DNA of 64,000 nt, taken from the NCBI GenBank assembly GCA_016219275.1, contig JACRBM010000031.1:1-64000 (forward strand), in the 5' to 3' direction. Position 1 is the stretch's first letter. Each line of letters starts with the position of its first letter. Origin of the DNA: Chloroflexota bacterium. GTDB lineage: Bacteria > Chloroflexota > Anaerolineae > UBA4142. Under the pieces are notes generated by a model. That model had not been told where the DNA came from, did not search any database, and worked only from the letters and a program-made list of their open reading frames with translations. The position numbers were made by a program, and so were the translations under genes. Shown here in pieces: positions 32,170 to 52,800 of this stretch.

Positions 32170-32225
32170 TCGGGTCAAGCACTTGATCGCCGAACGAGTT
32201 ACGATTGCACGAAAGGGGAAGGTCC

Positions 32226-33518
32226 ATGCAAGAAACGATCTTGTCCGCGCCGCCGATGCAAACGGCGTCCGATGTGGTTGACCTCTTGACCTCCAGCGCC
32301 GCACGCGAATTGCAAAAGACGCCCGCCGACGAACGCACCGGCGCGTTGCTCGGTCCGATCAAAGTCGTGCACGCGTTCTGGCTCGCCGGGATGAGTTGCG
32401 ACGGCTGTACGATCGCCGTCACCGGCGCAACCTCGCCGAGCGTCGAAGATTTATTGACCGGGCGTTTGCCCGGCGTTCCGCGTTTGGTCTTGCATCACTC
32501 GGTCGTTTCCGTCGAAGCCGGCGCCGAGTTCATCAAGAATTATGAACTCGCCGCGGCGGGGCAACTGAATGCGCCCTACGTCGTGATTTATGAAGGGTCC
32601 ATCGCGGACGAGAGCATCGCGGAAAAAACCGGCGGCTACTGGAGCGCCATGGGCGCGGACGCGCACGATCAGCCGATTCCGACTGCGACCTGGCTCAAGC
32701 GACTCGCGCCCGGCGCGGCGGCGGTGATCGCGATCGGCACGTGCGCGACCTGGGGCGGCATTCCGGCGGCGATTGGCAATCCCACTCACGCGATGGGCGT
32801 GATGGATTTTCTGGGCAAGGATTATCGCAGCGCGCTCGGTTTGCCGGTCGTCAACATCCCAGGTTGTTCGCCCGTCGGCGATAATTTTAGCGAAACGGTC
32901 GCCGCGGTGTTGTTGTTCTTGCAAGGATTGGGACCACTTCCGGAATTTGATGAACTGGGTCGTCCGGCGTGGCTCTTCAATCAAACGGTTCACCAGGGTT
33001 GCTCGCGCGCGGGATTTTACGAAGAAGGAATTTTCGCCGACCATTACGGCGATCAACGTTGTCTCGTGGAGATTGGTTGCTGGGGACCGGTCGTGCAATG
33101 CAACATCGCGCGGCGCGGCGCGATCAATCACGTCGGCGGTTGTATGAACGTCGGCGGCATCTGCATCGGTTGCACGATGCCCGGTTTTCCGGATCGCTTT
33201 GCGCCGTTCTATCAACGCCCGCCGGGCACGATGCTTTCGTCGAGCGCGTCGCGCGCGCACGGTTTTCTCATCAATAATCTGCGCCGCTTGACGCAAAAGC
33301 ATTTGAATCGTTCGCGGCTGTGGGGCGACCTGGGCGATGTGCCGAGTGGCTGGGGACATGTGCCCAAATTGAACTGGTTCGAACGCATCGAGCATCGTTT
33401 CTACGAACGCTTGCAATGGTGGCGCGGCGGCGAACCGATCGGACACGTTACATTTAGATCGTTCTACGGTCTCCCGCATCCTCACGAAGAAGAAAAACCG
33501 GCGGACAAAAAGGAGTGA
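32226..33518 (+). CDS. hhyS: [NiFe] hydrogenase small subunit, group 1h (actinobacterial high-affinity type)
   Basis: Electron-transfer subunit of a high-affinity H2-oxidising [NiFe] hydrogenase. Proximal-cluster segments are GMSCDGC (58-61), GTCATWGG and PGCSPVGDN; medial/distal ligands are in HQGCSRAGFY, QRCLVEIGCWGPVVQCN and GGICIGCTMPGF. The Asp within CDGC matches the 3Cys-1Asp cluster described for oxygen-insensitive actinobacterial-type enzymes such as that of Ralstonia eutropha. No Tat signal is present, as in group 1h. Length is 430 residues. The ATG at 32226 follows GGGGAAGG. It heads the hydrogenase operon. Confidence 0.92.
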   Translation: MQETILSAPPMQTASDVVDLLTSSAARELQKTPADERTGALLGPIKVVHAFWLAGMSCDGCTIAVTGATSPSVEDLLTGRLPGVPRLVLHHSVVSVEAGAEFIKNYELAAAGQLNAPYVVIYEGSIADESIAEKTGGYWSAMGADAHDQPIPTATWLKRLAPGAAAVIAIGTCATWGGIPAAIGNPTHAMGVMDFLGKDYRSALGLPVVNIPGCSPVGDNFSETVAAVLLFLQGLGPLPEFDELGRPAWLFNQTVHQGCSRAGFYEEGIFADHYGDQRCLVEIGCWGPVVQCNIARRGAINHVGGCMNVGGICIGCTMPGFPDRFAPFYQRPPGTMLSSSASRAHGFLINNLRRLTQKHLNRSRLWGDLGDVPSGWGHVPKLNWFERIEHRFYERLQWWRGGEPIGHVTFRSFYGLPHPHEEEKPADKKE

Positions 33519-35284: not shown

Positions 35285-37162
35285 ATGTGTTTCAAAAATC
35301 TACCCATCGAGTTTGACGAACACGGCAAGGCATACTTGAAAGAGGGTGTGCGCGATCCCTACGCGTATCAAACACTCTCGCTCGACGCGCAAGCCGATAA
35401 AATCAAGGATTTGCTCGCGCGCAACGGTCACATCAAATCGGTGGATTTCGATCCGGTGACGCGCGTCGCGGGCGCGCTCGCGTTTCACAGCGTCGTGGAT
35501 TTGAAAGAGCGCCGCGTCCTCGAAACGAATTCGATGGCGACCTTGTTTCGCGGCTACGAGATCATTCTCAAGGGACGCGATCCGCGCGATGCCGCGTTCA
35601 TCAGCAGTCGCGCGTGCGGCGTGTGCGGCGGCGTCCACGCGGCGACTTCGGCGCTCTCGCTCGAAATGGCTTTCCCGGTCGCGCCGCCGCCGCTCGGCAT
35701 CGCCACGCGCAACCTCTTGCTCGCGATTGAATTTCTCTACGATCATCCGCTTCATCTTTTTTTGCTAGCGGGACCGGATTATTCGCAAGCCATCATGCAA
35801 CTCACGAATCCGGAAATCTGGGAACGCGCCAAGACCACGCCCGCGCCGCACGCGAACTGGCACGGCTATCGCACGATTGGCGACATTATGGTGGATATGA
35901 ACCCGCTAACCGGCGCGTTGTATCTCGAAGCGTTGCACATGACACGCGTCGCGCGCGAAGCGTACGTTCTGCTCGGCGGCAAATATCCGCATCCCGAAAC
36001 GGTAATTCCCGGCGGCATGACCTCGACGATTAGCATTACGTCGTTCAACGAAGTGTACTCGCGCATCGCGCGCTTTTTCGATTACTCGAAAAAAGTCGTG
36101 GGCATCTGGGATGACCTGACTGAATTTTTCTATGCGGCGAATCCGGCGTACAAGCAAGTCGGCGCGCGCCCGGCGAACATGATTGATCCCGGCATCTGGG
36201 ATGATCCGTTCGCGTACGACGCGTCGTACGCGAATTGCAACGCGTGGGGCGAGAAACGCTGGGCAACGCCGGGTGTGATCGTGGACGGGCAAGTCGTGAC
36301 GACGAAACTGCAAGCGTTGAACATCGGCATCGAAGAATTCGTCGAACATTCGTATTACGACACCTGGGACAATCCGCGTTTCAAAACCGATCCGGCTGGC
36401 AATCCGCTCAGCCCGCACCACATGTGGAACAAGGACACCAAACCGCGTCCGAGCGGACAAAACTGGCGCGAGAAATATTCCTGGGATACTTCGCCGCGCT
36501 GGGATCGCAAAGCGATGGAAGCGGAATGCGCCGCGCGTTTGTGGAACACCGCGGCGGGCGGCGTGTTTCCGCACACGCGTTTCATCCAAGCGACAGGCAC
36601 GAGTCTCAAACTTCAAGTGCCTGAGGGCAAACAACCTGCCGTCGAAATGGAATGGCATGTGCCGGCGGTGTGGAATGCGTTCGAGCGCAATCGCGGGCGC
36701 GCGTACTGCATTCCGTACACCGTGATGGTCGCGTTCGACAACTGGCTCATCGGTTTGGATTTACTCAAACAGGGCAAGGACAAGATTCACACGCCGTTCG
36801 AACTGCCGCGCAATGGTACACACATCGGCGCGGGATTCTGGGGCGCGGGGCGCGGCTTTTTGACGCATCACGCGATTATTGACAACGGCGTTCTGAGCAA
36901 TTACCAAATTGTAACCCCTTCGACCTGGAACGCGAGTCCGCGCGGTCCGCAAGGCGACCCAGGACCGTACGAAGAAGCGGTGATGAACACGCCGATTTTA
37001 GAGAACGCGTCTAGCATCGAAAATTTCAAAGGCATTGACATTCTGCGAACGATTCGCAGTTTCGACCCGTGTATGCCATGCACGACGCACGTTCACGTTG
37101 ACGGCACGAATCACGTCGTCGTGCGCGAGGTGAATACGTGCGCGTGTGGGCTGGACGAATAA
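35285..37162 (+). CDS. hhyL: [NiFe] hydrogenase large subunit, group 1h
   Basis: Catalytic subunit carrying the NiFe(CN)2CO site. L1 is RACGVCGGVH (109-118, Cys 111 and 114) and L2 is DPCMPCTTH near the end (Cys 596 and 599). About 23 residues follow the final His, ending VNTCACGLDE, the usual place of a peptide removed by a maturation protease. The 625 residues fit the actinobacterial-type enzyme, which oxidises atmospheric or trace H2. It lies after the five small proteins; two protease-like genes and a Rieske protein follow. The cysteines in the C-terminal extension are unusual. Confidence 0.93.
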   Translation: MCFKNLPIEFDEHGKAYLKEGVRDPYAYQTLSLDAQADKIKDLLARNGHIKSVDFDPVTRVAGALAFHSVVDLKERRVLETNSMATLFRGYEIILKGRDPRDAAFISSRACGVCGGVHAATSALSLEMAFPVAPPPLGIATRNLLLAIEFLYDHPLHLFLLAGPDYSQAIMQLTNPEIWERAKTTPAPHANWHGYRTIGDIMVDMNPLTGALYLEALHMTRVAREAYVLLGGKYPHPETVIPGGMTSTISITSFNEVYSRIARFFDYSKKVVGIWDDLTEFFYAANPAYKQVGARPANMIDPGIWDDPFAYDASYANCNAWGEKRWATPGVIVDGQVVTTKLQALNIGIEEFVEHSYYDTWDNPRFKTDPAGNPLSPHHMWNKDTKPRPSGQNWREKYSWDTSPRWDRKAMEAECAARLWNTAAGGVFPHTRFIQATGTSLKLQVPEGKQPAVEMEWHVPAVWNAFERNRGRAYCIPYTVMVAFDNWLIGLDLLKQGKDKIHTPFELPRNGTHIGAGFWGAGRGFLTHHAIIDNGVLSNYQIVTPSTWNASPRGPQGDPGPYEEAVMNTPILENASSIENFKGIDILRTIRSFDPCMPCTTHVHVDGTNHVVVREVNTCACGLDE

Positions 37163-37237: not shown

Positions 37238-37732
37238 ATGCGAACACTAATCGCCGGCGTCGGCTATCACAATTTGCGCGACCTATCCATCGGACCCATG
37301 TTGGTCGCGAAATTAAAGCAACTCGATTGGCGCGCCAACGTCGAGATTGACGATTTGAGTTTCGGTCCCATCGCCGTCGTGCAAAGATTGCAAGACCAGC
37401 CATGTTACTACGACCGCGTCGTATTCGTTGCCGGCGTGCAACGCGGGCGCGCGCCGGGTCAAATTTTTTCGTATCACTGGGACAGCGCGTTGCCGAGCAA
37501 GGACGAAATCCAACAGCGGATCGGCGAAGCGGTCACCGGCGTCGTGAGTCTCGACAATCTGTTGATCATTGCCCAACACTTTGGCGTTCTGCCGCGCGAT
37601 GTGCGCGTCGTCGAGGTCGAACCGGCGGACACGAGCTTTGGACTTGAACTTACACCGCGCATCGAGGCAGTGTTCGATCAAGTGATTCAAGCCGTGAAGA
37701 ATGCGGCGCTAGAAACGAGTGTTCCAGCATGA
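37238..37732 (+). CDS. Degenerate hydrogenase maturation protease-like protein
   Basis: A 164-residue protein with the HyaD/HybD fold pattern: LIAGVGYHNLRDLSIGPMLV resembles the GxGNxLxxDDGxG start, and VVFVAGVQRG corresponds to the strand that normally reads VVDAV. In HybD, nickel is held by Glu16, Asp62 and His93; here the central Asp is Ala-Gly and the final His region reads VVSLDNLL. It is therefore probably not a working protease, and may instead be a scaffold or Ni-site chaperone. It overlaps the Rieske gene by four bases. Confidence 0.75.
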   Translation: MRTLIAGVGYHNLRDLSIGPMLVAKLKQLDWRANVEIDDLSFGPIAVVQRLQDQPCYYDRVVFVAGVQRGRAPGQIFSYHWDSALPSKDEIQQRIGEAVTGVVSLDNLLIIAQHFGVLPRDVRVVEVEPADTSFGLELTPRIEAVFDQVIQAVKNAALETSVPA

Positions 37733-38403
37733 GCGCGGATCGGCAAACAGAACTAGAGTTCAACGCGACGTTGCAACACCTCGACGAACTGGTTCAGGAA
37801 TTCGAGCATCTGCCGTTGCCTAAAGTCCGCGCAAAAGCAATGGAGATGCTCGCAACGATTGACGCGGTACATCGCGAAGGATTAAGCCGGCTCATCGCGT
37901 TCATCCGCGAACAAGGTCACGCCGATCTCGTCTTGCGCGCCGCGCACGATCCCATCGTCCACGCGTTACTCCTGCTGTACGATTTTCTTCCCGATGACGA
38001 AACGCCCGGATTTATTCCGTTCGATCAACTGGCGACCTTGCCGCCGCGCGAAAGACGACGCCCAGTTTTTTCTCCCATCGCGCGCGCGCAAGACATTGCG
38101 CTTGGAACGTATCGGGTGTACGATATTGATAATGCACGCGTCTTTATCGCGAATGTGAACGGCGACATTTACGCAGTGCGAAACAATTGTCCCGGCAGCG
38201 CCGCGCCGCTGAACCTGGGTCCGTTCACACCGCCCATCATCGTTTGTCCCTGGCATAACGAGGCGTGGGACATTCGCACTGGCAAACGTTCGGATGGGCA
38301 AGCCGGACCGAATCTCCAAGTCCTGCCGGTCGCGATTGTGGATGGCGTAATTCAGTTGGCGATCAACACGACACGCGCGAACAGCACACCAGGAGTCGGA
38401 TGA
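37729..38403 (+). CDS. Rieske-type [2Fe-2S] protein with a substituted ligand
   Basis: A 224-residue protein with an N-terminal helical domain (1-105) and a C-terminal Rieske domain (about 110-215). The second ligand box CPWH (Cys173, His176) is intact, but the first box reads CPGS (Cys154, Gly156) where CxH is expected. So only one His ligand remains, unless another residue substitutes. Rieske-like genes accompany group 1h hydrogenases and are thought to pass electrons onward. It is coupled to both neighbours by ATGA overlaps. Confidence 0.82.
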   Translation: MSADRQTELEFNATLQHLDELVQEFEHLPLPKVRAKAMEMLATIDAVHREGLSRLIAFIREQGHADLVLRAAHDPIVHALLLLYDFLPDDETPGFIPFDQLATLPPRERRRPVFSPIARAQDIALGTYRVYDIDNARVFIANVNGDIYAVRNNCPGSAAPLNLGPFTPPIIVCPWHNEAWDIRTGKRSDGQAGPNLQVLPVAIVDGVIQLAINTTRANSTPGVG

Positions 38404-38912
38404 AGCGCGTTCTGATCGCCGGGATGGGCAATGTCTTGCGCCGCGACGATGGTTTTGGTGTGCAGGTCGCCAAACATCTCGCCGACACAAACACGTTTCC
38501 CGCGAACGTCAAGGTCGTCGAGGTGGGCATTGGCGGCATCCATCTCGTCCAGGAATTGATGGCGGGCTACGATGTGTTGGTCGTGGTGGATGCCGTCGAA
38601 CACGGGAGCGCGCCGGGAACGATGCGCGCCTCGCAAGCGGATGTGCCCGACCTGGGTTCCTGGGAGGAAGATGCGCGACGCGATTTTCTTTCCGACATGC
38701 ACTATACGACGCCAAGCCAGGCGTTGATTCTTGCCAAGGCGCTCGGCGTTTTGCCGCCCCAGGTTTTCATCGTGGGCTGTCAGCCCGGCGACGTGAACGA
38801 CCTAGGCATTGGTTTGACGGAACCGGTCGCGCGCGCGGCGCAGACGACGATTCGCGTGATCGAAAAAATCGTTCGGGAGACTCAGCGTGGCGAAACGACC
38901 AGCGAAAAATGA
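38400..38912 (+). CDS. Hydrogenase maturation protease
   Basis: A 170-residue HyaD/HoxM-type endopeptidase that removes the C-terminal peptide of the large subunit after nickel insertion. All family landmarks are present: LIAGMGNVLRRDDGFGVQVA, VVVVDAVEHG with the metal-binding Asp, and DMHYTTPSQALILA with the His. The ATG (38400) overlaps the Rieske stop. It is the functional counterpart of the degenerate homologue at 37238. Its 3' end overlaps the wHTH gene by 26 bases. Confidence 0.92.
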   Translation: MKRVLIAGMGNVLRRDDGFGVQVAKHLADTNTFPANVKVVEVGIGGIHLVQELMAGYDVLVVVDAVEHGSAPGTMRASQADVPDLGSWEEDARRDFLSDMHYTTPSQALILAKALGVLPPQVFIVGCQPGDVNDLGIGLTEPVARAAQTTIRVIEKIVRETQRGETTSEK

Positions 38913-39273
38913 TTCCTCGGCGCTCGACGCGATTTTTTGGCGCGACGAGATTTTGCAAGTGATGTTTTGGATGCGCGGCGAAGGTCTGGGCGACGCGCCG
39001 ACCGCCGAAGAACTCGCAACGTTTCTGAACACGACCGCCGAACAACTGCGCGTCCACCTCGACCGGATGACAAAAGAAAAATATCTGACGCGCGCGAAAA
39101 GCAAGGGGTATTCGCTCACCGAGCGTGGACGCGCCGAAGGCGGCAGGCAATTCATGGACGAATTCGCCGGCTTGACGAATCAAGCGCACGGCGAATGCAA
39201 CAACCCGAATTGCGCGTGCCAGACCCAGGGTCCCGAATTTTGCGAATCGCGCCAAACGCGCGCGCACGCATGA
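38887..39273 (+). CDS. Winged-helix regulator with Cys-rich C-terminal tail
   Basis: A 128-residue protein. Residues 15-95 look like a winged helix (DEILQVMFWMRGEGL, PTAEELATFLNTTAEQLRVH, KEKYLTRAKSKGYSLTERG). The tail GECNNPNCACQTQGPEFC holds four Cys (104, 109, 111, 119) suited to a metal or Fe-S cluster. The GTG at 38887, with GGGAG upstream, starts inside the protease gene. It is the first of three HTH proteins in this island with NCxC tails. Confidence 0.8.
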   Translation: MAKRPAKNDSSALDAIFWRDEILQVMFWMRGEGLGDAPTAEELATFLNTTAEQLRVHLDRMTKEKYLTRAKSKGYSLTERGRAEGGRQFMDEFAGLTNQAHGECNNPNCACQTQGPEFCESRQTRAHA

Positions 39274-40005: not shown

Positions 40006-40785
40006 ATGCGAGTGGCGGTTTCAGGCAAAGGCGGCTCGGGCAAAACGACGATTGCTGGAATTCTCGCGCGGGTGATGGCGCGGGATGGGCACAAGGTGCT
40101 GGCGATTGACGCCGATCCCAGCCCGAATATGGCGGTCGTGATGGGCGTGCCGCGCGAGCAAGCCGCCCAGGTCAATGTGATTCCGCGCGAGATGGCAGAG
40201 TGGCGTCAAGACGATCATGGTCGCGCGTACGTGCATCTCCGCGAACCGCTCGATCAAATCGCGGAGCAGTACGGCTGGCATGTGCCCGATGGCATTCGCT
40301 TGCTCGTCACCGGACAAATCACCGAAGCGGGCGTTGGGTGCATGTGCCAGCCGCACGCGATTGCGCGCGGGCTGATGGCGGCGACGCGCGAGGGACCCTG
40401 GGCAGATGTCACCGTGACGGACATGGAAGCCGGTCTGGAGCATCTGAGCCGCGGCACGACCGAACACGCCGACGTGATGCTCGTCGTCGTCGAACCGTAC
40501 TTTCGTTCGCTCGACCTGGGCGGGCACGCGGCGGAACTCGCGCGCGACCTGGGTATTCCCAACATATTTTTTGTTGCGAACAAGGTGCGAAACGAAACGG
40601 ATCGGCAAGCCGTGAGCGAGTTGGCAGAGCGGAAAAAAGTTGAACTCATCGCAACGATTCCGTACGACGAGCGCGTCCCCGAATCGGATCGCGTTGGAAT
40701 GTCGCCTCTGGATTATGCGGCTGACTCGGGCGTCGTTGCGGCGATCCATCGTCTCGCGCAAGAATTGCAAACACGCGTGGCATAG
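40006..40785 (+). CDS. CooC-like nickel-binding ATPase (MinD/ArsA-type P-loop)
   Basis: A 259-residue SIMIBI-class ATPase related to CooC. The deviant Walker A GKGGSGKTT is at 7-15, the switch-like Asp in LAIDADPSPNMA, and the CxC motif GCMC at Cys112 and Cys114, the same positions that bind nickel between subunits in CooC1. CooC dimers deliver Ni to CO dehydrogenase; no CODH gene is in the window, so a role in hydrogenase nickel supply is more likely here. AAGGAG lies before ATG 40006. The MerR-type gene follows by 13 bases, probably cotranscribed. Confidence 0.88.
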   Translation: MRVAVSGKGGSGKTTIAGILARVMARDGHKVLAIDADPSPNMAVVMGVPREQAAQVNVIPREMAEWRQDDHGRAYVHLREPLDQIAEQYGWHVPDGIRLLVTGQITEAGVGCMCQPHAIARGLMAATREGPWADVTVTDMEAGLEHLSRGTTEHADVMLVVVEPYFRSLDLGGHAAELARDLGIPNIFFVANKVRNETDRQAVSELAERKKVELIATIPYDERVPESDRVGMSPLDYAADSGVVAAIHRLAQELQTRVA

Positions 40786-40798
40786 CGAGGGTTTCTAA

Positions 40799-41257
40799 AT
40801 GGTGCATCGCGATCTACTCAAGATCGGTGAACTGGCGAAACAAACGAACACGACGCGCAAAGCGATTCGCTATTACGAACGGATCGGTTTGCTTGCGCCG
40901 GCGACGCGCGGCGAAAATCGTTATCGCTTGTATGCACGGCAGGCGCTCGACCAACTGCGCTTTATTCGCCGCGCCAAACTGATGGGCTTGTCGCTCAACG
41001 AGATTGCGGAATTGATTGACCTGGCGAGCGATGGCGCGTGCGATCCCCTGCGCGAAAAACTCGGCGCGATGCTCGCGCGCAAAATCCGCGAAACCGACGA
41101 TCAGGTTCAATCGCTGATTGCATTTCGCGATGATTTGAAACTCTTGCGTCGAAGACTGATGCAGTCCGGCAAGAACGCCTGTGGAACGTGCGGTGCGTTC
41201 ATGCCCAACTGCGACTGCATGCCCAAACCGAAAAAAACAACGACGCGTATTCGATAA
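40799..41257 (+). CDS. MerR-family regulator with Cys-rich C-terminal tail
   Basis: A 152-residue MerR protein. The N-terminal wHTH is LKIGELAKQTNTTRKAIRYYERIGLLAP, followed by the dimerisation helix. The tail CGTCGAFMPNCDC (Cys128, 131, 138, 140) resembles the metal loops of ZntR/CueR-type sensors but is arranged with the NCxC motif found in the other two regulators here. It lies 13 bases after the CooC-like gene and ends before a terminator. Confidence 0.87.
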   Translation: MVHRDLLKIGELAKQTNTTRKAIRYYERIGLLAPATRGENRYRLYARQALDQLRFIRRAKLMGLSLNEIAELIDLASDGACDPLREKLGAMLARKIRETDDQVQSLIAFRDDLKLLRRRLMQSGKNACGTCGAFMPNCDCMPKPKKTTTRIR

Positions 41258-41354: not shown

Positions 41355-41472
41355 TGTTTTTGCGAGGAGCGCAGCGACGAAGCAATCACCCCTCCCAACC
41401 CTCCCCTTGACAAGGGGAGGGCTAGGGTGGGGTTGGAGATTGCTTCGGGCAAAAAACACCCTCGCAATGACA
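41355..41472 (-). repeat. MITE-like palindromic element, copy B (inverted)
   Basis: This carries the same core as 34769-34890 but in opposite orientation, bounded by TGTTTTTGCGAGG and CCCTCGCAATGACA. The pair faces each other across 6.5 kb containing hhyL to merR. Confidence 0.88.
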
Positions 41473-41500
41473 GATGGGCTGACTTCAAAAGGAGACCCTG

Positions 41501-42097
41501 GTGGACGAGACGATTCAAAAAGTCAAAGAGTTTCACGGGCACCTGTGCCCAGGTCTGACGATTGGCGTGCGCGCCGCGCAAATCGCCTTGCGCGAAATCG
41601 GTCCCCACTCTGCCGATGAAGAAGTCGTCGCCGTCGTCGAAACGGACATGTGAGCGGTGGACGCGATCCAGTCGTTGACTGGATGCACGTACGGCAAAGG
41701 CAACTTGATTCACCGCGATTACGGCAAGAACGCGTTCACGTTCTATCGTCGCTCCGATGGCAAAGCCATCCGCATCGTCACGCGCCCCGATGGATGGCCC
41801 CCCGAACCGGAAGAGCGCAAAATTCTCTTCGATAAAGTCCGCGCGGGAACGGCAACCGAAGCCGAAGCGAAACGTTTTCGCGAATTGCACGTTCAACGCG
41901 CGCTGGCAGTCCTCCAAGTACCCGAGGAACAATTATTCCGCGTGCGCGAAATTTTGGGCAAGCCGCCGCGCAAGGCGCGCATCCACGATTCGGTGCAATG
42001 CGAATCGTGCGGCGAGTCTACGATGGAAACGCGCGCGCGTCGTTTCAAGGGACAAAATTTGTGCATCCCGTGCTTTGAAGAAGCCGAACGCAAATGA
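41501..42097 (+). CDS. FmdE-family protein, probable selenoprotein (in-frame TGA as Sec51)
   Basis: A single 199-codon frame from GTG 41501 (GGAG upstream) to TGA 42097 if the TGA at 41651-41653 is read as selenocysteine. The N-terminal part has EFHGHLCPGLTIGVRAAQ (Cys16) and VVAVVETDM before the TGA; the continuation is AVDAIQSLTGCTYGKGNLIH. FmdE homologues read E-(N/T)-D-x-C-A/S-V-D-A at this point, so TGA replaces a conserved Cys. The C-terminal zinc ribbon is CESCGESTMETR and LCIPC. A SECIS-like hairpin follows the TGA. The stop overlaps the permease ATG (42094). A point mutation giving a truncated gene is the alternative. Confidence 0.8.
41651..41684 (+). promoter_or_regulatory. Candidate bacterial SECIS element
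   Basis: UGA at 41651-41653 is followed by a perfect 8-bp stem ATCCAGTC (41666-41673)/GACTGGAT (41677-41684) with the 3-base loop GTT. The loop begins 20 bases after the UGA and has G first, fitting published bacterial SECIS rules (apical loop about 16-37 bases after UGA, G in the first two loop positions). Confidence 0.75.
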
Positions 42098-43107
42098 GTG
42101 TGAACATCCGCGCGTTGAACGTGAGGCGCACCCCGCGCTGGCTGAACCAGGTCGGCTTGTACGGGTTGACGGTCTGGGCAGTGTTGACGTTCAATTTTTT
42201 GTTGCCGCGCGCACTGCCGGGTGATCCGATTGCCGCGATGCAAGACTCGTCCTCAAATTTCTACATTGCCGATGCCGAGGCGCGCGCGCGGCTCGCGGCG
42301 TACTATGGTCTCGACCGCCCGCTCGGCGAACAGTACTTGGGCTATCTCGCCGGCATCGCCACCGTCAACCTGGGGTGGTCCATTCGATTGAACACGCCGG
42401 TAATCGAATTGCTTCGCCTGCGCTTGCCGTGGACACTCTTGCTCACGATCCCAACGTTGTTGATCGCTTCGACGATTACCGTGCTCGCCGGCGTGCACTC
42501 TGGCTGGGTGCGCGGTTCACGCACAGATCGCGCGTTGTTGATCGCGTTCAACCTGATTCGCACCATGCCGGTGTATCTCCTCGGCGTTTTTGCGTTGATC
42601 CTGTTCAGCGTGAATCTCGGCTGGCTTCCGCTCTTCGGCGCGACGACGCCGTTTCGCGTCTGGCAAACACCCTGGGAACAAGCCGCCGACATTCTCAAAC
42701 ATTGGATTTTGCCGGCGTCGTTGCTGATCGTCGAAACACTGGGCGCGCGTTTTCTGTTGATGCGTAACAGCATGGTCGCGGTGCTCGGCGAAGATTACAT
42801 GCTCGTCGCGCGCGCCAAGGGTTTGCCCGAACGCGCGATCGAGTTTCGTCACGGCTTGCGTAACGCGATCTTGCCGTTCGTCACCGCGTTCTCGGCGCAA
42901 CTCGGGTTTGCCGTTTCGGGCGCGATCTTTATCGAAACCTTGTTCGCATACCCCGGCATGGGACGACTGATGTTCGACGCGGTCGGCGCGCGCGATTATC
43001 CGGTTCTCGAAGGATCGTTTCTGGTTGTCGCGCTATCCGTGTTGACGATGAATCTGCTTGCCGATCTAATGTACGGCTGGCTCGATCCGCGCGTGAGGGA
43101 AGCATGA
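42094..43107 (+). CDS. ABC permease, dipeptide/nickel type (DppB/NikB-like)
   Basis: A 337-residue inner-membrane permease with about six helices. LPRALPGDPIAAM and YYGLDRPLGEQY are typical of the DppB/NikB first domain, and the EAA loop is MLVARAKGLPERAIEFRHGLRNAILP. These transporters carry oligopeptides, nickel or metal-chelate complexes. Its start overlaps the FmdE stop (ATGA), so the FmdE-like protein is translationally coupled to transport. Confidence 0.9.
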   Translation: MSVNIRALNVRRTPRWLNQVGLYGLTVWAVLTFNFLLPRALPGDPIAAMQDSSSNFYIADAEARARLAAYYGLDRPLGEQYLGYLAGIATVNLGWSIRLNTPVIELLRLRLPWTLLLTIPTLLIASTITVLAGVHSGWVRGSRTDRALLIAFNLIRTMPVYLLGVFALILFSVNLGWLPLFGATTPFRVWQTPWEQAADILKHWILPASLLIVETLGARFLLMRNSMVAVLGEDYMLVARAKGLPERAIEFRHGLRNAILPFVTAFSAQLGFAVSGAIFIETLFAYPGMGRLMFDAVGARDYPVLEGSFLVVALSVLTMNLLADLMYGWLDPRVREA

Positions 43108-44030
43108 GTGTAAAAGTGTGGGCGCAAGGGAGCAAGGGAGCAGAGAAGCAAGGGAGAAAGATTTTATCTCCCGTACCCCCGCGCACCCTTGCGCCCCTGC
43201 CAACGATTGGCGCGACCATCATCGCGTTCTACCTCCTTGGCGCACTCTTCGCGCCCGTGCTCGCGCCGTACGATCCGTCAGCATACGTCGGCAATCCGCT
43301 CGAACGACCGAGCGCGGTGCACTGGCTCGGCACGAACGACGTGGGGCAAGACATATTGAGCGAACTCATTTACGGCGCGCGCATTTCGCTCGTGGTCGGC
43401 GTCGTCGCCGGAATGTTGACCCTGACGCTCGCAACTCTGGTCGGCATGACGGCAGGTTACCTGGGCGGCAAAGTGGATGCGCTCTCGATGCGGTTCGTGG
43501 ATACGTTGATGGCGATTCCGCATTTGCCGTTGATGATTTTGGTCGGCGTCTACCTCGGCGCGAGCATTTTCAATCTCATTCTGCTGATCGCGTTGCTCGG
43601 ATGGATGGTTCCCGCGCGCATTATTCGCGCCCAGGTATTAAGTTTGCGTAGCCGCAGTTACATTCACTCGGCGCGTTTGTTCGGCGCGGGCGCGGGCTAT
43701 GTGATTTTTCGACACCTGATTCCGGCGGTCGCGCCGATTCTCGCGGCGACCTTCGTCGCGCAAGCCGGTCGCGCAATTGGAATGGAAGCCGGGTTGGCGT
43801 TTCTCGGCTTGGGCGATCCCACGGCGAAATCCTGGGGTTTGATTATGCGCTATGCGTTAAATTTTGGCGGCATCTACTTTACGTCTCATTGGTTGTGGTG
43901 GCTGTTGCCCGCCGCGTTGAACATCAGCGCGATTATCCTGGGGTTCACTTTCCTGGGTGTGAGTTTGGAATCGCGCCTGGACCCGCGCTTGAAGCGACAC
44001 GCGGCGACCCAGATTCTATCACATGATTAG
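43104..44030 (+). CDS. ABC permease, dipeptide/nickel type (DppC/NikC-like)
   Basis: A 308-residue permease. HWLGTNDVGQDILSELIYGARISL is the DppC/NikC hallmark, and the EAA loop is HSARLFGAGAGYVIFRHLIPAV. The first 40 residues (WAQGSKGAEKQGRK) are encoded by an 8-base repeat array and look foreign to the family. The ATG overlaps the preceding stop. Partner of the permease at 42094. Confidence 0.9.
   Translation: MSVKVWAQGSKGAEKQGRKILSPVPPRTLAPLPTIGATIIAFYLLGALFAPVLAPYDPSAYVGNPLERPSAVHWLGTNDVGQDILSELIYGARISLVVGVVAGMLTLTLATLVGMTAGYLGGKVDALSMRFVDTLMAIPHLPLMILVGVYLGASIFNLILLIALLGWMVPARIIRAQVLSLRSRSYIHSARLFGAGAGYVIFRHLIPAVAPILAATFVAQAGRAIGMEAGLAFLGLGDPTAKSWGLIMRYALNFGGIYFTSHWLWWLLPAALNISAIILGFTFLGVSLESRLDPRLKRHAATQILSHD
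43118..43160 (+). repeat. GCAAGGGA octamer array, translated
   Basis: GCAAGGGA, GCAAGGGA, GCAGAGAA, GCAAGGGA lie in tandem inside the 5' end of the NikC-like gene, with a complementary CCCTTGCGCCCCTGCC soon after. Confidence 0.75.
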
Positions 44031-44188: not shown

Positions 44189-45892
44189 ATGGATAATCTT
44201 ATCGAAATTCGCGACCTGACCGTTTCCTATTCCACTGCGCCGAACAGTGTCGTTCACGCGCTCAACGGAATTTCATTCGATCTCGCGCGCGGCGAAGTGT
44301 TAGGCATCGTCGGCGAAACCGGGTCGGGCAAGACGACGCTCGCGCTTACGTTGATGGGACTCGCAACGACGGCGCAACTCCACGGGCAAGTGCTTTACGA
44401 AAACGCGCCCTTACCGCTCGGCGATGATAACGCGATGCGCGCGATGCGGTGGCGGCGGATCGCGCTCGCGTTCCAGGGATCGAGCAACGCGTTCGATCCG
44501 GTGTACACGATGGAACACCAGGTCATCGAACCGATCATCGAACACCTAAAACTGGATCAGCGCACGGCGCGCGAACGCGCGCGCGCGCTGTGGGACAATG
44601 TTGGCTTGACGCCGGAATTGTTCGAGCGTTATCCGCACCAACTGAGCGGCGGCGAAAAACAACGCGCGATGCTCGCAATGGCGCTGGCGTGTGATCCAGA
44701 ATTGTTGATCGTGGATGAGCCGACCTCAGGACTCGATATGCTGACGCGCGGGCGCATCCTGGAATTGCTTGCCGAGTTGCGCCGCCAACGCGGATTGACC
44801 ATGATCGTCATCTCACATGATTTGGACGATGTCGCCGGGCTGACGGATCGCACGCTCGTTTTGTATGCCGGTCAAATCGCGGAACTGGGCAAGACTGCCA
44901 ACGTGCTCGACGTGCCACTGCATCCGTACACCTGGGGTCTCGTCAACGCATACCCGCGCATGGATCGCGCTAAAGATTTGTGGGGCATTCGTGGTCAACC
45001 GCCTGACCCGATGAACTTGCCGCGCGGCTGTCCGTTCCACCCGCGTTGTACGCAAGCCATCGAACGTTGCGCGATTGAATTGCCGCGCCTCGCGCCAAGC
45101 GATGGTCGCTTGGTCGCGTGTCATCTCGGCGGATTGCAAACACTGCTCGAGGTGCGCGGTATCACCAAACGTTTTCGCGATGGTCCGGTCGCCGTCAAGA
45201 ACGTCTGGCTCTCCGTGCGCGAAGGCGAAGTCGTCGCCCTGGTCGGACAGACTGGTAGTGGCAAGACGACGCTCGCGAAATGTCTCGTCGGTTTGCATGA
45301 ACCGGATGCGGGTCAAGTCATTTTCGAGGGGCAGGACGTGCACGCGTTGCGCGATCAATCCTTGCGCGCGGCGCGGCGTCGCATCCAAATGATTTTTCAG
45401 GACCCGTTCGAATCGCTCAGCCCGCGCTTGACCGTGCTCGAACTCGTGCGCGAGCCGCTCGACATTCAGCAACTCGGCGCGCGCGAAGAACGCGATCAAC
45501 GCGCCCGTCGCGCGCTTGCCGATGTCCGTTTGCCGGCGACGCCGGCGTTCTTGTCCAAGCATGGTCACGAACTTTCGGGCGGACAATTGCAGCGCGTTGC
45601 GATTGCGCGCGCGCTCATCCTCGAACCCAAGCTCATCATCGCCGACGAGCCGGTCGCGATGCTCGATGCCAGCGAGCAAGCCAAGGTCTTGCGTTTACTC
45701 AAAGAGGCGCAGAACGAACGCGGTATGGGCTTGCTCTTGATCTCGCACGATCTCGCGCTCGTTCGCAAAGTATCGGATCGCATCGCCGTGATGCGCCAGG
45801 GTGAAATTGTCGAAGTGGGTTTGTCACATTCCATCATCCAGCGTCCGGAGCAAGCGTATACCCAAACGCTAATTGCCGCGGCGCAACGGTGA
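44189..45892 (+). CDS. Fused dual ATP-binding protein of the dipeptide/nickel ABC transporter (DppD-DppF type)
   Basis: A 567-residue protein joining two ABC ATPase domains. Domain 1 (1-260) has GETGSGKTT, LSGGEKQRAMLAMAL and LLIVDEPTSGLD, then the oligopeptide-type segment CPFHPRCTQAIERC (four Cys/His that may bind a cluster). Domain 2 (about 325-567) has GQTGSGKTT, ELSGGQLQRVAIARAL and LIIADEPVAMLD. Such fusions replace separate DppD/DppF or NikD/NikE. I start at ATG 44189, where homology begins. Confidence 0.93.
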   Translation: MDNLIEIRDLTVSYSTAPNSVVHALNGISFDLARGEVLGIVGETGSGKTTLALTLMGLATTAQLHGQVLYENAPLPLGDDNAMRAMRWRRIALAFQGSSNAFDPVYTMEHQVIEPIIEHLKLDQRTARERARALWDNVGLTPELFERYPHQLSGGEKQRAMLAMALACDPELLIVDEPTSGLDMLTRGRILELLAELRRQRGLTMIVISHDLDDVAGLTDRTLVLYAGQIAELGKTANVLDVPLHPYTWGLVNAYPRMDRAKDLWGIRGQPPDPMNLPRGCPFHPRCTQAIERCAIELPRLAPSDGRLVACHLGGLQTLLEVRGITKRFRDGPVAVKNVWLSVREGEVVALVGQTGSGKTTLAKCLVGLHEPDAGQVIFEGQDVHALRDQSLRAARRRIQMIFQDPFESLSPRLTVLELVREPLDIQQLGAREERDQRARRALADVRLPATPAFLSKHGHELSGGQLQRVAIARALILEPKLIIADEPVAMLDASEQAKVLRLLKEAQNERGMGLLLISHDLALVRKVSDRIAVMRQGEIVEVGLSHSIIQRPEQAYTQTLIAAAQR

Positions 45893-45899
45893 ATAGACC

Positions 45900-45932
45900 A
45901 GACCTTCCAGGTCTCGGAGACCTGGAAGGTCT
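45900..45932. repeat. Perfect palindrome of the AGACCTGGAAGGTCT family
   Basis: AGACCTTCCAGGTCT and AGACCTGGAAGGTCT are 15-base arms with a 3-base loop. It lies between the ATPase gene and the methyltransferase ribosome binding site; relatives occur at 7818-7857 and 25683-25716. Confidence 0.85.
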
Positions 45933-45952
45933 TGACCGATAGGAGGTGCACG

Positions 45953-46972
45953 CTGTCAGAACTCGAACATCGTCGCCATATCATTGCGATCATGCGCGGC
46001 TATCGTCCGGCGCAGGTGCTGATCGCTTGTACGGAACTGGGAATCTTTGAGATGCTCGGTGAGCAAGCGCTCAGCGCGGCAGACCTCGCGCGCACACTCG
46101 ACGCCGATGCGAGCGCGCTGACGCGGTTGATGAATGCCGCCGTCGCGCTTGGATTTCTCGAAAAACGCGATGGGTTGTACGCGAATAGCGCGGCAACGCT
46201 CGCGTGCCTGGCGCGCGAAGGTCCGTTGTTCGTCGGCAATCTCGTCAAGCGCGAGGGTGCGTTCTTCCGACGCTGGGCGCGATTGAGTGAAGCCGTCAAG
46301 ACCGGTCGTCGTCCCGAGGAAAATCTGCGCGACGAAAAACAAAAAACCTGGGTGCGCGGTTTCGAGTTCGCGTTGCGCGATGCCGCGCGAACGATGGCGC
46401 CCGCCATCGCGGAAACCTTGGAGCCGTTGCTCCCCGCGCGGTCAACTGCGCCGGCGCGCGTGATTGATGTGGGCGGCGGGCATGGGATGTACAGCATCGC
46501 GCTCGCGCAACGCTGTCCGAACGTTCAAGCCGTCGTCTTTGATTTGCCGCCGGTAATCGAAGTCACGCGCGAGATCATTGCCGATTCGGGCGTCGCCGAT
46601 CGCGTCCACACCCATGCCGGCGATTTCAAGATTGATGGACTCGGCAGTGACTTTGATCTCGCCTTGCTCTTTGGCGTGCTCGTGAGCGAAACGCCGGAAA
46701 ACTCGCTCGCGCTGTTGCGAAAAGTATACGCCGCGCTCGCGCCGGGTGGTCATATCGCGATTCGCGGTTTTTACCTGACGCCCGACCGCACGAGTCCGCT
46801 CGAAGCCACGTTGTTCGATCTGCACATGCTGCTCTCGACGGAAGCCGGGCAATCGCGCACGACGGATGAGGTGACAACCTGGTTGATCGAGTCGGGCTTT
46901 GAACCGCCCAAAACGATTCATCTGTCTGCGCCAGAGCCAGCCATGTTGCTCGTCGCGCGAAAAGCAAATTGA
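45953..46972 (+). CDS. SAM-dependent O-methyltransferase (ASMT/plant-OMT-like)
   Basis: A 339-residue class I methyltransferase. An N-terminal winged-helix dimerisation domain (LSAADLARTLDADASALTRL) is followed by the SAM domain: VIDVGGGHGMYSIALAQ is motif I, VVFDLPPVIEVTR and HAGDFKIDGL follow, and GFYLTPDRTSPLEA is the active-site region. Family members methylate hydroxyls of small aromatic or polyketide compounds. The start is unusual: AGGAGG at 45941-45946 points to CTG 45953; TTG 45932 lies inside a palindrome without a ribosome binding site. It sits between transporter genes. Confidence 0.85.
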   Translation: MSELEHRRHIIAIMRGYRPAQVLIACTELGIFEMLGEQALSAADLARTLDADASALTRLMNAAVALGFLEKRDGLYANSAATLACLAREGPLFVGNLVKREGAFFRRWARLSEAVKTGRRPEENLRDEKQKTWVRGFEFALRDAARTMAPAIAETLEPLLPARSTAPARVIDVGGGHGMYSIALAQRCPNVQAVVFDLPPVIEVTREIIADSGVADRVHTHAGDFKIDGLGSDFDLALLFGVLVSETPENSLALLRKVYAALAPGGHIAIRGFYLTPDRTSPLEATLFDLHMLLSTEAGQSRTTDEVTTWLIESGFEPPKTIHLSAPEPAMLLVARKAN

Positions 46973-46991
46973 TTCTGAAGGAGGAATCATT

Positions 46992-48665
46992 ATGTATCCG
47001 ATGACACGTCGTGAGTTTCTACAACTTGTCGGCTTGTCAACGACTGGGTTAATCGTCGCCAGTTGCGCGCCGCAAACCGTTGCGCCAACCGCCGCGCCCG
47101 CCAAACCGGCGATCGCAAAATCGGTGCCGGTCATTCGTTTGGTCGGCGGCGACAATGGCTATCCCACACCATTCGCGTACGTGCGCGGTCCGGGATATAT
47201 CCGGATGAGTTTTATTTTCGATCAACTCGTTTGGAAAGATAGTCAAGGTTACATTCCCTGGCTTGCGACCGAGTGGAAATCGGTGGAGGATGGCAAGCGG
47301 TGGACGTTCACACTGCGCGACAGCGTGAAATGGCAAGACGGTCAGCCGTTCACGGCGGACGATGTTATCTTTACGTTCCAGTATTCCAAAAGCCAGCCCG
47401 CGCTATCGCCGCTCGTGCGCGGACTCGAGTTCATCACGGAGATTCGTAAGACGGATGCCAACCACGTCGAATTTGTTTTCTCGCGACCGTACGCGCCGTT
47501 CCTCGTCAACATCGCCGGCGCAACGCCGATCATCCCCAAGCACATTTGGGAAAAGGTTTCCGACCCGCTTAAATTCACGACGCCCGAAGCGCTGCTGGGA
47601 AGCGGACCGTACAAATTGATTTCGTACGACAAGGCGACCGGCGCGTATCTGTACGAAGCGAACAATAATTTCTTTCTCGGCAAACCGCACGTACAACGCA
47701 TTGAACTGGTGCCGGTCGCGGATGGTCTGGTCGCGTTACAGCAAGGCACGGTGGACGTCGCGGGTCTGCCGACCGATACCGGCGTGCCCGACGATGTGAT
47801 CGCGCCGTTCCAAAAACCCGAGTTTGGAATTCTGAGCGCGCCGGGCGAATGGAACCCCGTCATTCACTTTAACATGTCCAAGGGCGCGCCGTACAACGAT
47901 GTCAAGTTCCGTCAGGCATGGGCGTACGCGATTGATCGCGCCGAAATGGTCAAGCGGCTGTTGTTCGGGCGCGGCGAGCCAGGCGTGCCGGTTTATCTCG
48001 CGCCGTCGAATCCCTGGTTCAATCGCAACGTCGAGCAGTACAAGTTTAACTTGGACAAAGCCAAAACGTTGTTGGAGAGCGCGGGCTATAAGGATGTCAA
48101 CGGCGATGGCGTGCGCGAAAATCCCGACGGCAAACCATTCCGGGTTCCGCTCATTTTCGATTCGAACGGTTTCGTACGCCTCGCCGAAATGGTTCGCGAT
48201 ATGCTCAAGACCGCGGGTATTGCCGTCGAGTTAAAGCCGGTGGATCGCGCGACGATGGACGCTTCGACGTCGAGCGGCAATTACGACGTCGCGATCACGT
48301 ACTATGGCGGACTCGGCGGCGACCCGGATACGATGCGCCAAAACTTTTCGAGCAAGAGTACGTCGAAATCATTTTCGCGCGCGCTGGGTTACAGCAATCC
48401 CCGGTTCGACGAACTGGCGGACCAACAACTTGCGACGACCGACGAAGCGAAACGCCAAGCGCTTGTGATGGAGATGCAAGTGATTCTCGCGCAGGATGTG
48501 CCGGTCTTGCCGATCTACTATCCGACGCGCAACGAAATTCACCGCAAGGCGATTTTCGACAACTGGTACTATACCCCCAACGGGATTGCTTCCGGTGTGC
48601 CGCAGACCTGGAACAAGCAAGTGTTTGTCACCGGGCAAAAGACCGGCACCACGATTCTGCAATGA
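46992..48665 (+). CDS. Solute-binding lipoprotein, dipeptide/nickel family (DppA/NikA-like), Tat-type signal
   Basis: A 557-residue family 5 binding protein. The N-terminus MTRREFLQLVGLSTTGLIVASC combines a twin-arginine-like RR with a lipobox (VASC), so it is probably exported folded by Tat and lipid-anchored. The mature part has WKSVEDGKRWTFTLRD, DVIFTFQYSK and VKFRQAWAYAIDRAEMVKRL, all typical. The ligand may be a peptide, nickel or a metal chelate. AAGGAGG precedes ATG 46992. It completes the operon with the permeases and fused ATPase. Confidence 0.92.
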   Translation: MYPMTRREFLQLVGLSTTGLIVASCAPQTVAPTAAPAKPAIAKSVPVIRLVGGDNGYPTPFAYVRGPGYIRMSFIFDQLVWKDSQGYIPWLATEWKSVEDGKRWTFTLRDSVKWQDGQPFTADDVIFTFQYSKSQPALSPLVRGLEFITEIRKTDANHVEFVFSRPYAPFLVNIAGATPIIPKHIWEKVSDPLKFTTPEALLGSGPYKLISYDKATGAYLYEANNNFFLGKPHVQRIELVPVADGLVALQQGTVDVAGLPTDTGVPDDVIAPFQKPEFGILSAPGEWNPVIHFNMSKGAPYNDVKFRQAWAYAIDRAEMVKRLLFGRGEPGVPVYLAPSNPWFNRNVEQYKFNLDKAKTLLESAGYKDVNGDGVRENPDGKPFRVPLIFDSNGFVRLAEMVRDMLKTAGIAVELKPVDRATMDASTSSGNYDVAITYYGGLGGDPDTMRQNFSSKSTSKSFSRALGYSNPRFDELADQQLATTDEAKRQALVMEMQVILAQDVPVLPIYYPTRNEIHRKAIFDNWYYTPNGIASGVPQTWNKQVFVTGQKTGTTILQ

Positions 48666-49216: not shown

Positions 49217-49346
49217 AAACTTTAATGTTGCTGTCAGCATTTTTCTAACTGAAATGCTGCTGAATGGCAAGTGACCCGCGGATGCAAAGATCTTCAGCCA
49301 GATTTTTCTAATCGGTCGCCTGGGGCTGGAGGGAGCAAATGGCGAA
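49217..49346 (+). ncRNA. Structured leader RNA, possible riboswitch (GEMM-like?)
   Basis: Between promoter and terminator lie an 8-bp hairpin CAGCATTT/AAATGCTG (49235-49259) and a bulged stem CAGCCAG/CTGGGGCTG (49295-49328). The words GGCAAGTGACC, GGATGCAAAG and GGTCGCCTGGGG between and around them are reminiscent of the GCAAACC, GACGCAAAG and GGUAGCCGGG blocks of c-di-GMP-I (GEMM) riboswitches, but the match is imperfect. The class is uncertain; the aptamer-then-terminator layout is seen directly. Confidence 0.45.
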
Positions 49347-49386
49347 ACCGGCCGCTACGTTTTGTAGTGGTCGGTTTTTGTTTTTT
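49347..49386 (+). terminator. Intrinsic terminator ending the structured leader
   Basis: ACCGGCCGCTAC (49347-49358) pairs with GTAGTGGTCGGT (49364-49375) using two G-T pairs, followed by TTTTTGTTTTTT. It lies between promoter and the first small gene, so transcription of the NRPS operon must pass it. Confidence 0.8.
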
Positions 49387-49720: not shown

Positions 49721-49801
49721 GTGTCGTCAAACTAAAACTAAAACAATCTAGCTGGCATCACCGCAATTGCAGCGTGTCAGTGCATGAACGAGAGGCACAC
49801 T

Positions 49802-52800
49802 ATGAACCAGAGCGCCGAATCGTCCACTGAGACATTTGCCTATCGCGATCTAGTTGATCTGCTTCAGCGGAAATCGTTTCCTCAACCTCATCGCAAGATT
49901 TACACTTTTCTTGATGACGGCGAAACTCAAGAAAGTTATCTGACCCAGGATGCATTAGATTGTCGAGCACGCGCAATCGGCGCGACCCTCGAACGCCTGC
50001 GAGCGACCGGTCAACGCGCTCTATTGCTCTATCCCCCCGGCTTGGAATATATCGCCGGTTTCTTCGGTTGTCTGTACGCTGGCGCTGTTGCTGTTCCCGC
50101 TTATCCACCCGACCCAGCCCGCCTCAATCGTACGTTACCTCGCCTGCAAGCGATGATTGCCGACGCCCAGGCAAGCTTTATTCTCACCACGACTGAAATT
50201 CTTTCGTTTGCCGAATTCCTGTTCGATCAAGCGCCCGACCTTGCGGCACTGCAGTGGATCGCGACCGACACGATTCCTGACAGCGCGGCAGGTGATTGGC
50301 GCGACCCCGGCATTTCGCGCGATACCCTCGCGTTTCTGCAATACACCTCCGGCTCCACGCGCACGCCGCGCGGCGTGATGTTGACCCACGGCAATCTGCT
50401 TCACAACTCGGCGTTGATCAGCCAAGCATTTCGAGTAACTCCACACAGCGTCGGCATGGTCTGGCTTCCGCCCTATCACGACATGGGACTCATCGGCGGG
50501 ATTCTCCAACCCCTATTTGCCGACGTTCCTTGCGTCTTAATGTCGCCGGTCTCGTTTTTGCAACGCCCCTTTCGTTGGCTCCAAGCGATTTCACGTTATC
50601 ACGCGACCATCAGCGGCGGTCCCAATTTTGCGTACGACCTTTGCGTTCGCAAGACGACGCCGGAGCAACGCGCGACGCTCGATCTGAGCAGTTGGAGTTT
50701 GGCGTTCAACGGTGCAGAACCGATTCGCCCGGAAACGCTTGATCGTTTTGCGGAGACGTTCGCGCCGTGTGGCTTTCGCCGCGAGGCATTTTATCCGTGC
50801 TACGGTCTCGCCGAGGCAACGTTGATTGCGACCGGTAGTTTGAAACGCGAACCGCCGGTGCTGTTCACGATTCAGAAATCTGCGCTCGAACACAACCAAG
50901 TGATACCATCGCGCCGAGATGACCCAGACGCGCAAACGCTAGTTGGATGCGGTCAAGCATTGCAAGAGATTGCGCTAGTGGACCCAGGATCGTTGACGCG
51001 CTGTGCGCCCGATCACGTCGGCGAAATATGGATCGCGGGTCCGAGTGTCGCGCAAGGATATTGGAATCAACCGGCAGAAACGCACACCGTCTTTCACGCG
51101 CGGCTGGCTGACGACGACAGCGATTTCATGCGCACCGGCGATCTCGGCTTTGTACACGACGGCGAATTGTTCGTCACCGGGCGCATCAAAGACCTCGTTA
51201 TCATTCGCGGCAGAAATCATTATCCGCAAGATATCGAACTCACCGTCGAGTCATGTCACACCGCATTGCGTCCCGGTTGCGGCGCGGCATTCTCGATTGA
51301 CGTGAACGGCGCAGAGGAACTCGTCATCATGAACGAGGTAGACACACGCCAGGAATTCGACGCGGATGCCATCGTGAACGCGATTCGTCAAGCCGTCGCC
51401 GAGGCGCACGATGTCCAAGTGTACGCGGTGGTGTTGATCGAGCCGCGTAGTATTCCCAAAACCTCGTCCGGCAAAATCCAACGCCACGCGTGTCGCGCCG
51501 AGTATCTTGCCGGGACATTAGAAATTGTCAAGGTGAGCGTGATGGAGATTGCTAGCATTGCCAAGGATCAAGCCGCCACATCCGAACCGCTCTTGGTCAA
51601 AGCACTGCGCGCCATGTCGCCGCAACATCGTCATGTTTTACTCGAATCGCATATCCAAGAACAGGTCGCGCGTGTATTGCGCGTTGCGCCATCGCGCTTG
51701 AATCCCGAACAGCCACTGACCGTGCTGGGAATTGATTCGGTCATGGCAGTGGATTTGGTAAGTGAACTCGAATCGAGTCTGGGTGTCACGTTGCCCATCG
51801 AATATCTAACGCGAGGCATCACGGCGTCTCAACTCGCTCTGCTGATCGCGGATCAATTCACCGCGCGACTGACTCCGCCAGCCCTGGTCGAAGAGCCGCT
51901 CGCCGAATACCCGCTCTCGCACGGTCAGCGCGCGTTGTGGTTCTTGCATCAACTGAATCCGGATAGCGGCGCGTACAACCTTGTGAATATTGTACGCATT
52001 ACCGCGCCGATGGATGTGAAGGCAATGCAACGCGCGTTTGAAAAAATCGTCGAGCGACATCCCACGCTGCGGACGACATTTGCCGCGCCCGATGGCAATC
52101 CGATTCAACGCGTGCACGCGCGCATTCCCAGGTTCTTTTTCAGCGAGAATGCGGCGACGTGGAGCCAAGCGCAACTCGATGCGCGCTTGGCGGAAGAAGT
52201 GTATCGCCCCTTTGATTTGGAGCAGGGTCCGCTCATTCGCGTGAACGTGTTCACCCGTTCGCCGCACGAGTACGTCTTGTCGCTCGCGATGCATCACATC
52301 GTCACCGATCTCTGGTCTATCGCCGTGATTATGTACGAGTTGGGTGTGTTGTATCCGGCAGAGATGACCGGTGTGCCAGCCGTGTTGAAAATGCCGCGCA
52401 CGCAATACGCCGATTTCATTCGCGAGCAAGACGCCATGCTCGCCAGCCCGGAAGGCGCGCGACATTGGGAATATTGGTCTCAGCAACTCGCCGGCGATCT
52501 CGTCCCGCTCGATTTGCCGACGGATCGTCCGCGTCCGCCGGCGCAATCCTACCACGGTTCATCGCAGACGATTCGCTTGGGCGCCGACCTGGCGCGGCGT
52601 CTCGACGCCATCGCGAAAACGCACGGCGCGCCACTGCACGCGCTTTTGCTCGCGGCATTTGAGACCTTGCTCTATCGCTACACCGGCCAAGACGATTTTC
52701 TGGTTGGCTCGCCCAAAGCCGGGCGCACTCAAAAGTGGGCGCGCGTCATCGGCTATTTCGTCAACCCGATTGTTCTGCGCGCCAATCTCGCCGGCAATCC

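Follow-up and report, generated by a model that had tools for sequence, protein, structure and literature searches.

The gene at positions 41501 to 42097 on the forward strand of a 64,000-nucleotide stretch of Chloroflexota DNA (the window) is best explained, taken as a whole, as encoding a selenoprotein form of FmdE, and we have little doubt about this reading. Actual incorporation of selenocysteine (Sec) at the UGA at 41651 is, judging from the sequence, very likely. FmdE can with high confidence be regarded as a genuine, apparently undescribed selenoprotein family. As for what the protein does, nickel handling for a neighboring hydrogenase is the best-supported role, which we assign with moderate confidence; to a selenoprotein that instead acts as a zinc-dependent regulator or redox protein we give a little under an even chance. 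The gene and its elements are as follows.

41490–41494, forward strand: Shine-Dalgarno-like AGGAG, six bases 5' of the GTG start
41501–42097, forward strand: FmdE gene of 198 codons, residue 51 predicted as Sec, matches to PF02663 and PF01258
41531–41548, forward strand: codons of the FHGHLC metal-ligand motif (H12, H14, C16), whose counterparts are ligands in 2glz and 2gvi
41651–41653, forward strand: in-frame TGA, read as selenocysteine (U51), placed by codon alignment at Cys55 of 2glz and Cys61 of 2gvi
41666–41684, forward strand: bacterial SECIS-type hairpin with 8-bp stem ATCCAGTC/GACTGGAT and loop GTT at 41674–41676

The frame opens with GTG at 41501, and the TGA at 41651–41653 is the sole in-frame stop before the gene end; re-reading gave the same otherwise continuous frame as the initial annotation. 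The final stop, TGA at 42095–42097, shares the ATGA at 42094–42097 with the ATG of the next gene, which is the overlap with an ABC operon that had been noted before. If the TGA is translated as an amino acid, the protein matches PF02663 with an E-value of 4.8e-47 and 159.8 bits (cut-off 22.9). The FmdE core comprises residues 11–146, and a DksA/TraR-type C4 zinc finger (PF01258, E 2.3e-08) occupies the C-terminus (residues 167–197). There are sequence matches to the solved FmdE proteins 2gvi, 2glz and 3d00, and the AlphaFold model (mean pLDDT 94) has the FmdE fold, with Z 18.2 and rmsd 2.5 over 145 residues for the predicted structure against 2glz, and Z 15.8 and rmsd 2.9 over 184 residues against 2gvi. 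The window protein resembles the three solved proteins in its fold and in the metal site of HxHxC and a distal residue, and 2gvi and 3d00 also in the two-domain layout; it differs from them in that Sec would take the place of the distal ligand Cys.

Homologues were gathered from over 800 genomes and by scanning a species collection, which gave 107 distinct sequences. The codon aligned with the TGA encodes Cys in 103 of them and Gly in one, and is TGA in three, so that the proposed location of the TGA at the conserved Cys of the family holds in the sense that 106 of the 107 sequences have Cys or TGA there. The three TGAs, all at the U51 codon, are the only in-frame stops in the 107 alignments, and H12, H14 and C16 are invariant (107/107). 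The three TGA genes stem from three independent assemblies: the window's own gene, L051/L022 on JACRMI010000137 (83% identity to the window gene; same family, another genus) and L087/L023 on JAJVIM010000005 (65% identity; another family of the class). Within Chloroflexota, they represent three genera from two families. Besides a UGA aligned to the Cys of its homologues, the gene has predicted Sec-containing homologues (L051, L087) in other Sec-using species. In both of their genomes selB and selC are present, and each also has an Fdh-alpha match with an in-frame TGA. Searches across the phylum and across the order of G324 found no further TGA members, and a scan of viral contigs found no FmdE relatives. 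The window's genome also has a second FmdE paralogue of the Cys type (L002, at G000:C32:35366-35881; 35–40% identical), on a contig that carries several molybdopterin oxidoreductase matches and selA as well.

A premature stop, either in a decaying pseudogene or between two split genes with a restart at GTG 41657, is highly improbable. A 146-residue open frame does run from this GTG, two codons past the TGA, and genes of the operon can decay: in G301 (L051:5594-7038), the ABC genes past FmdE are deletion-fused remnants, with permease 1 joined to permease 2 and NikDE joined to NikA. However, the same TGA is kept in three genera together with the hairpin, without any other stop or frameshift, and purifying selection is evident on both sides. 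Comparison of the window gene with L051 gives a dN/dS of 0.12 ahead of the TGA and 0.11 beyond it, so that the two regions are equally constrained at the protein level. The restart product would moreover lose H12, H14 and C16, yet these upstream residues are conserved. As the Sec-FmdE gene of G301 is intact beside the ABC remnants, the FmdE protein is not tied to the ABC transporter.

The hairpin downstream of the TGA is more than chance. Its arms (41666–41673 and 41677–41684) pair perfectly over 8 bp, starting 12 nt past the TGA and placing the GTT loop 20 nt downstream of it. These features satisfy the published bSECIS constraints (PMC13188914), as the initial annotation had supposed, and at the hairpin Rfam gave no more than chance-level matches. 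The hairpin alone has a folding energy of -13.6 kcal/mol; the 60 nt from the TGA have an MFE of -20.2 kcal/mol, with z = -2.2 relative to dinucleotide-shuffled sequences. When the peptide was recoded 5000 times with random synonymous codons, 0.16% of the versions formed a stem of 8 bp or longer. The window contains 154 TGAs flanked by open frame on either side; just two of them have a hairpin of this type with a stem of 7 bp or more, and the second of these marks the true end of a gene, behind which lies an inverted repeat.

The comparison between homologues points in the same direction. The 17-nt hairpin core, ATCCAGTCGTTGACTGG, is identical in all three TGA genes, and the stem hardly varies among them. 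Between the window gene and L087, synonymous sites are otherwise at or near saturation, yet this core is unchanged, and 10 of 13 codons in the hairpin zone are identical versus 48 of 110 in the rest of the gene (p 0.037), with the synonymous-site tests reaching moderate significance only (p 0.04 to 0.08). Where the TGA genes have a Ser codon, almost every one of the closest Cys homologues has another residue, mostly F or Y. The hairpin is missing from those Cys homologues that were folded. A stem of any kind of at least 6 bp, a weak generic test, was found in 12 of 86 Cys homologues examined, and none of these 12 has a GTT loop 20 nt past the codon.

As had been suggested as a check, the window's genome was searched for sel genes. 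selA, selB, selC and selD are all present, each above its family cut-off; selD itself has an in-frame TGA, and so have formate dehydrogenase (FdhA) genes. The FdhA loops are GTT or GTC, 19 nt past the TGA (spacing counted by hand), and the geometry of the FmdE hairpin therefore resembles what the organism's SelB presumably recognizes. FdhA and FmdE thus have in common the UGA, a G-U-pyrimidine loop 19–20 nt past it and the same decoding genes, although they belong to unrelated protein families and the FdhA type has a longer uninterrupted stem under the loop. The tRNA-Sec was found in 12 of 14 genomes tested of the class; because it is this common, it is a prerequisite that does not discriminate.

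Decoding of the UGA as Cys or another amino acid would agree with the Cys of the homologues, and misreading of UGA exists in principle. Nevertheless, we find it hardly credible in a genome with a complete Sec machinery and further selenoprotein genes that contain UGA, with similar SECIS-type hairpins in FdhA, and in which UGA elsewhere serves as a normal stop codon, among other places where the FmdE gene itself terminates. An assembly or sequencing error that turned TGC or TGT into TGA is a negligible prospect, since the same codon, although from metagenome-derived relatives, occurs in three independent assemblies along with a hairpin that Cys homologues lack. Alignment, hairpin and sel genes together support the original proposal that the gene encodes a new selenoprotein of the FmdE family, its Sec codon in frame and accompanied by a SECIS element. 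In the pathway that we envisage, SelB would deliver Sec-tRNA to UGA 41651, directed by the hairpin at 41666–41684, and ribosomes reading through to 42097 could couple to the overlapping ABC permease gene.

What the Sec residue would do can be judged from the solved Cys homologues. The 2glz crystal contains one ion site with a zinc/nickel mixture, liganded by His15, His17, Cys19 and Cys55, and 2gvi has zinc bound by His16, His18, Cys20 and Cys61 (PMC2954224). In the alignment, U51 falls on Cys55/Cys61, and H12, H14 and C16 fall on the remaining ligands; Sec is therefore expected as a metal ligand. The protein thus has the FHGHxC motif of the family and, if Sec is accepted as a ligand, also the distal one, whose position is the TGA. 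Most likely, then, Sec ligates a metal, and this metal is probably nickel. It had been thought that the Cys of the HGHLC motif may pair with the Sec. The two do appear to belong to the same metal site, but the Cys is probably not simply a redox partner, because both Cys and the two motif His ligate one Zn/Ni ion in the solved Cys homologues (PMC2954224).

Part of the case for nickel comes from the gene neighborhood.

32205–33518, forward strand: [NiFe]-hydrogenase small-subunit-like gene, labeled by sequence and context (64% in L160)
35285–37162, forward strand: [NiFe]-hydrogenase large subunit (PF00374, E 8.9e-74; 66% in L160)
37238–38912, forward strand: two hydrogenase maturation proteases (37238–37732 and 38397–38912; TIGR00072)
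37729–38403, forward strand: Rieske-type ferredoxin gene between the two proteases (Rieske-type models)
40006–40785, forward strand: CooC-type ATPase for nickel insertion, with Cys112-X-Cys114 (CooC 3kje as closest solved match, E 2.2e-35)
40799–41257, forward strand: MerR-family metal-type regulator (CueR/ZntR-like, under the cut-offs)
42094–43107, forward strand: Nik/Opp-type ABC permease 1 (PF00528), its start overlapping the FmdE stop
43104–44030, forward strand: Nik/Opp-type ABC permease 2 (PF00528)
44192–45892, forward strand: fused NikD/NikE-type ABC ATPase (NikE and NikD models above cut-offs; other oligopeptide models match too)
45932–46972 (putative start), forward strand: O-methyltransferase-like protein of the transporter operon (PF00891; same cluster in L160)
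46989–48665, forward strand: NikA/Opp-type solute-binding protein (PF00496; best NCBIfam match NikA TIGR02294, 174 bits, under cut-off)

We favor a nickel role because a CooC homologue, a [NiFe]-hydrogenase with its maturation proteases and a Nik/Opp-type importer surround the gene. The nickel/zinc cysteines of CooC are Cys112 and Cys114 (PMC6006190), and C112 and C114 of the CooC homologue are also kept in L087. The order hydrogenase, CooC, FmdE, Nik/Opp is seen again in L160, in the distant TGA genome. A Cys-type FmdE adjoins the same ABC genes at several loci, the association of FmdE with CooC and/or ABC genes recurs, and the Cys-type loci L058, L060 and L076 have CooC and a hydrogenase as well. 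Genes of the FmdE family are often found beside metal transporters (PMC2954224), as here. The substrate of the ABC importer is ambiguous, with NikA under its model cut-off and oligopeptide models matching as well.

Several findings would suit a zinc-dependent regulator or a redox protein. The solved Thermoplasma member bears zinc, and a part in transcription regulation has been suggested for the family (PMC2954224); zinc is present in solved members, and the window protein ends in a zinc finger. The permuted core is thioredoxin-like, most known Sec residues are thought to be redox-active, and in 2gvi an unknown ligand lies 1.8 Å from the sulphur of Cys61, covalently attached (PMC2954224). On the other hand, the context of CooC, hydrogenase and Nik/Opp importer is common to Sec and Cys forms, and nickel is present in the 2glz site.

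For nickel handling, we envisage that nickel (or a similar soft metal) is imported by the adjacent Nik/Opp-type importer and bound by FmdE, in which Sec would stand where 2glz has Cys55, the fourth ligand of the His-x-His-x-Cys...Cys site, and that FmdE and the CooC-type ATPase would hand the metal to the [NiFe]-hydrogenase of the cluster as it matures. For nickel as the metal together with a chaperone role, the chances are roughly balanced. In its most specific form, the model makes FmdE a Sec-tuned nickel metallochaperone, with the selenolate as an exchangeable fourth ligand, that carries Ni from the Nik/Opp-type importer to CooC-driven hydrogenase maturation; we put this forward tentatively, together with the possible double origin or core-segment transfer of the Sec form. 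Sec is a nickel ligand in [NiFeSe]-hydrogenases (PMC13188914), which would share a metal-ligand Sec with FmdE, where it is expected by homology. Those enzymes are catalytic, whereas FmdE is a small protein beside a hydrogenase, and the large subunit of this neighboring hydrogenase, unlike [NiFeSe] enzymes, keeps Cys (DPCMPC).

Other elements of the region deserve mention. A small protein encoded at 38887–39273, with a Cys/His-rich tail (HGECNNPNCACQ) and without a Pfam or NCBIfam match, is conserved beside CooC and maturation protease in L160 (50%), L159 (76%), L075 and L076, and is possibly an undescribed accessory protein of the hydrogenase. Between the MerR gene and FmdE, at 41362–41487, there is a repeat-like element with inverted arms GAAGCAATC/GATTGCTTC and CCCTCCCC/GGGGAGGG, single-copy within the window for the probe used. 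A perfect 15-bp inverted repeat (AGACCTTCCAGGTCT/AGACCTGGAAGGTCT) at 45893–45940, right after the fused NikDE stop and before the methyltransferase gene, is terminator- or attenuator-like, without a clear T run. Further downstream, a c-di-GMP-II-GAG riboswitch (49271–49362, forward strand, 56 bits) lies about 420 bases 5' of an NRPS-like ORF of 1804 residues (49784–55198), and control of this secondary-metabolite gene by c-di-GMP is possible.

In the best tree, the two Sec lineages stand apart among Cys relatives, which suggests two gains of the Sec form, or one gain followed by losses; a single TGA clade is not rejected (AU p 0.104). Around the Sec (residues 39–98), the window protein and L087 are 95% identical, versus at most 88% for Cys homologues in the set, and their C-terminal parts are 47% identical. 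Given this difference between core and C-terminus, the Sec form may also have spread by transfer of the core segment, SECIS included, or it may have arisen twice.

The initial annotation knew of no described FmdE selenoprotein, and none turned up in the 2026 catalogue or in the open-access full text searched. A review of that year lists 119 prokaryotic selenoprotein families and subfamilies, with FmdB included and FmdE (PF02663) absent (PMC13188914). A full-text literature search for FmdE and selenoprotein found no relevant paper, in a corpus limited to open access, so that absence is not proof, and NCBIfam has no FmdE-type selenoprotein model for the protein. The FmdB-family selenoprotein (TIGR02605) is similar in gene name only; it belongs to a different family and has a UxxU motif.

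With FmdE, the selenoprotein catalogue gains one more family, and the role expected of its Sec, that of a Zn/Ni ligand in a protein of small size, is unusual. Through the crystal structures of the Cys homologues, it is among the clearer cases of a Sec position known as a Zn/Ni ligand. Genes that contain such a TGA will be cut short or split by standard gene callers. The Sec and Cys forms are a natural pair for asking what selenium buys at a metal-transfer site, and in uncultured Chloroflexota the Sec form would link the use of selenium with the handling of nickel and the maturation of hydrogenase.
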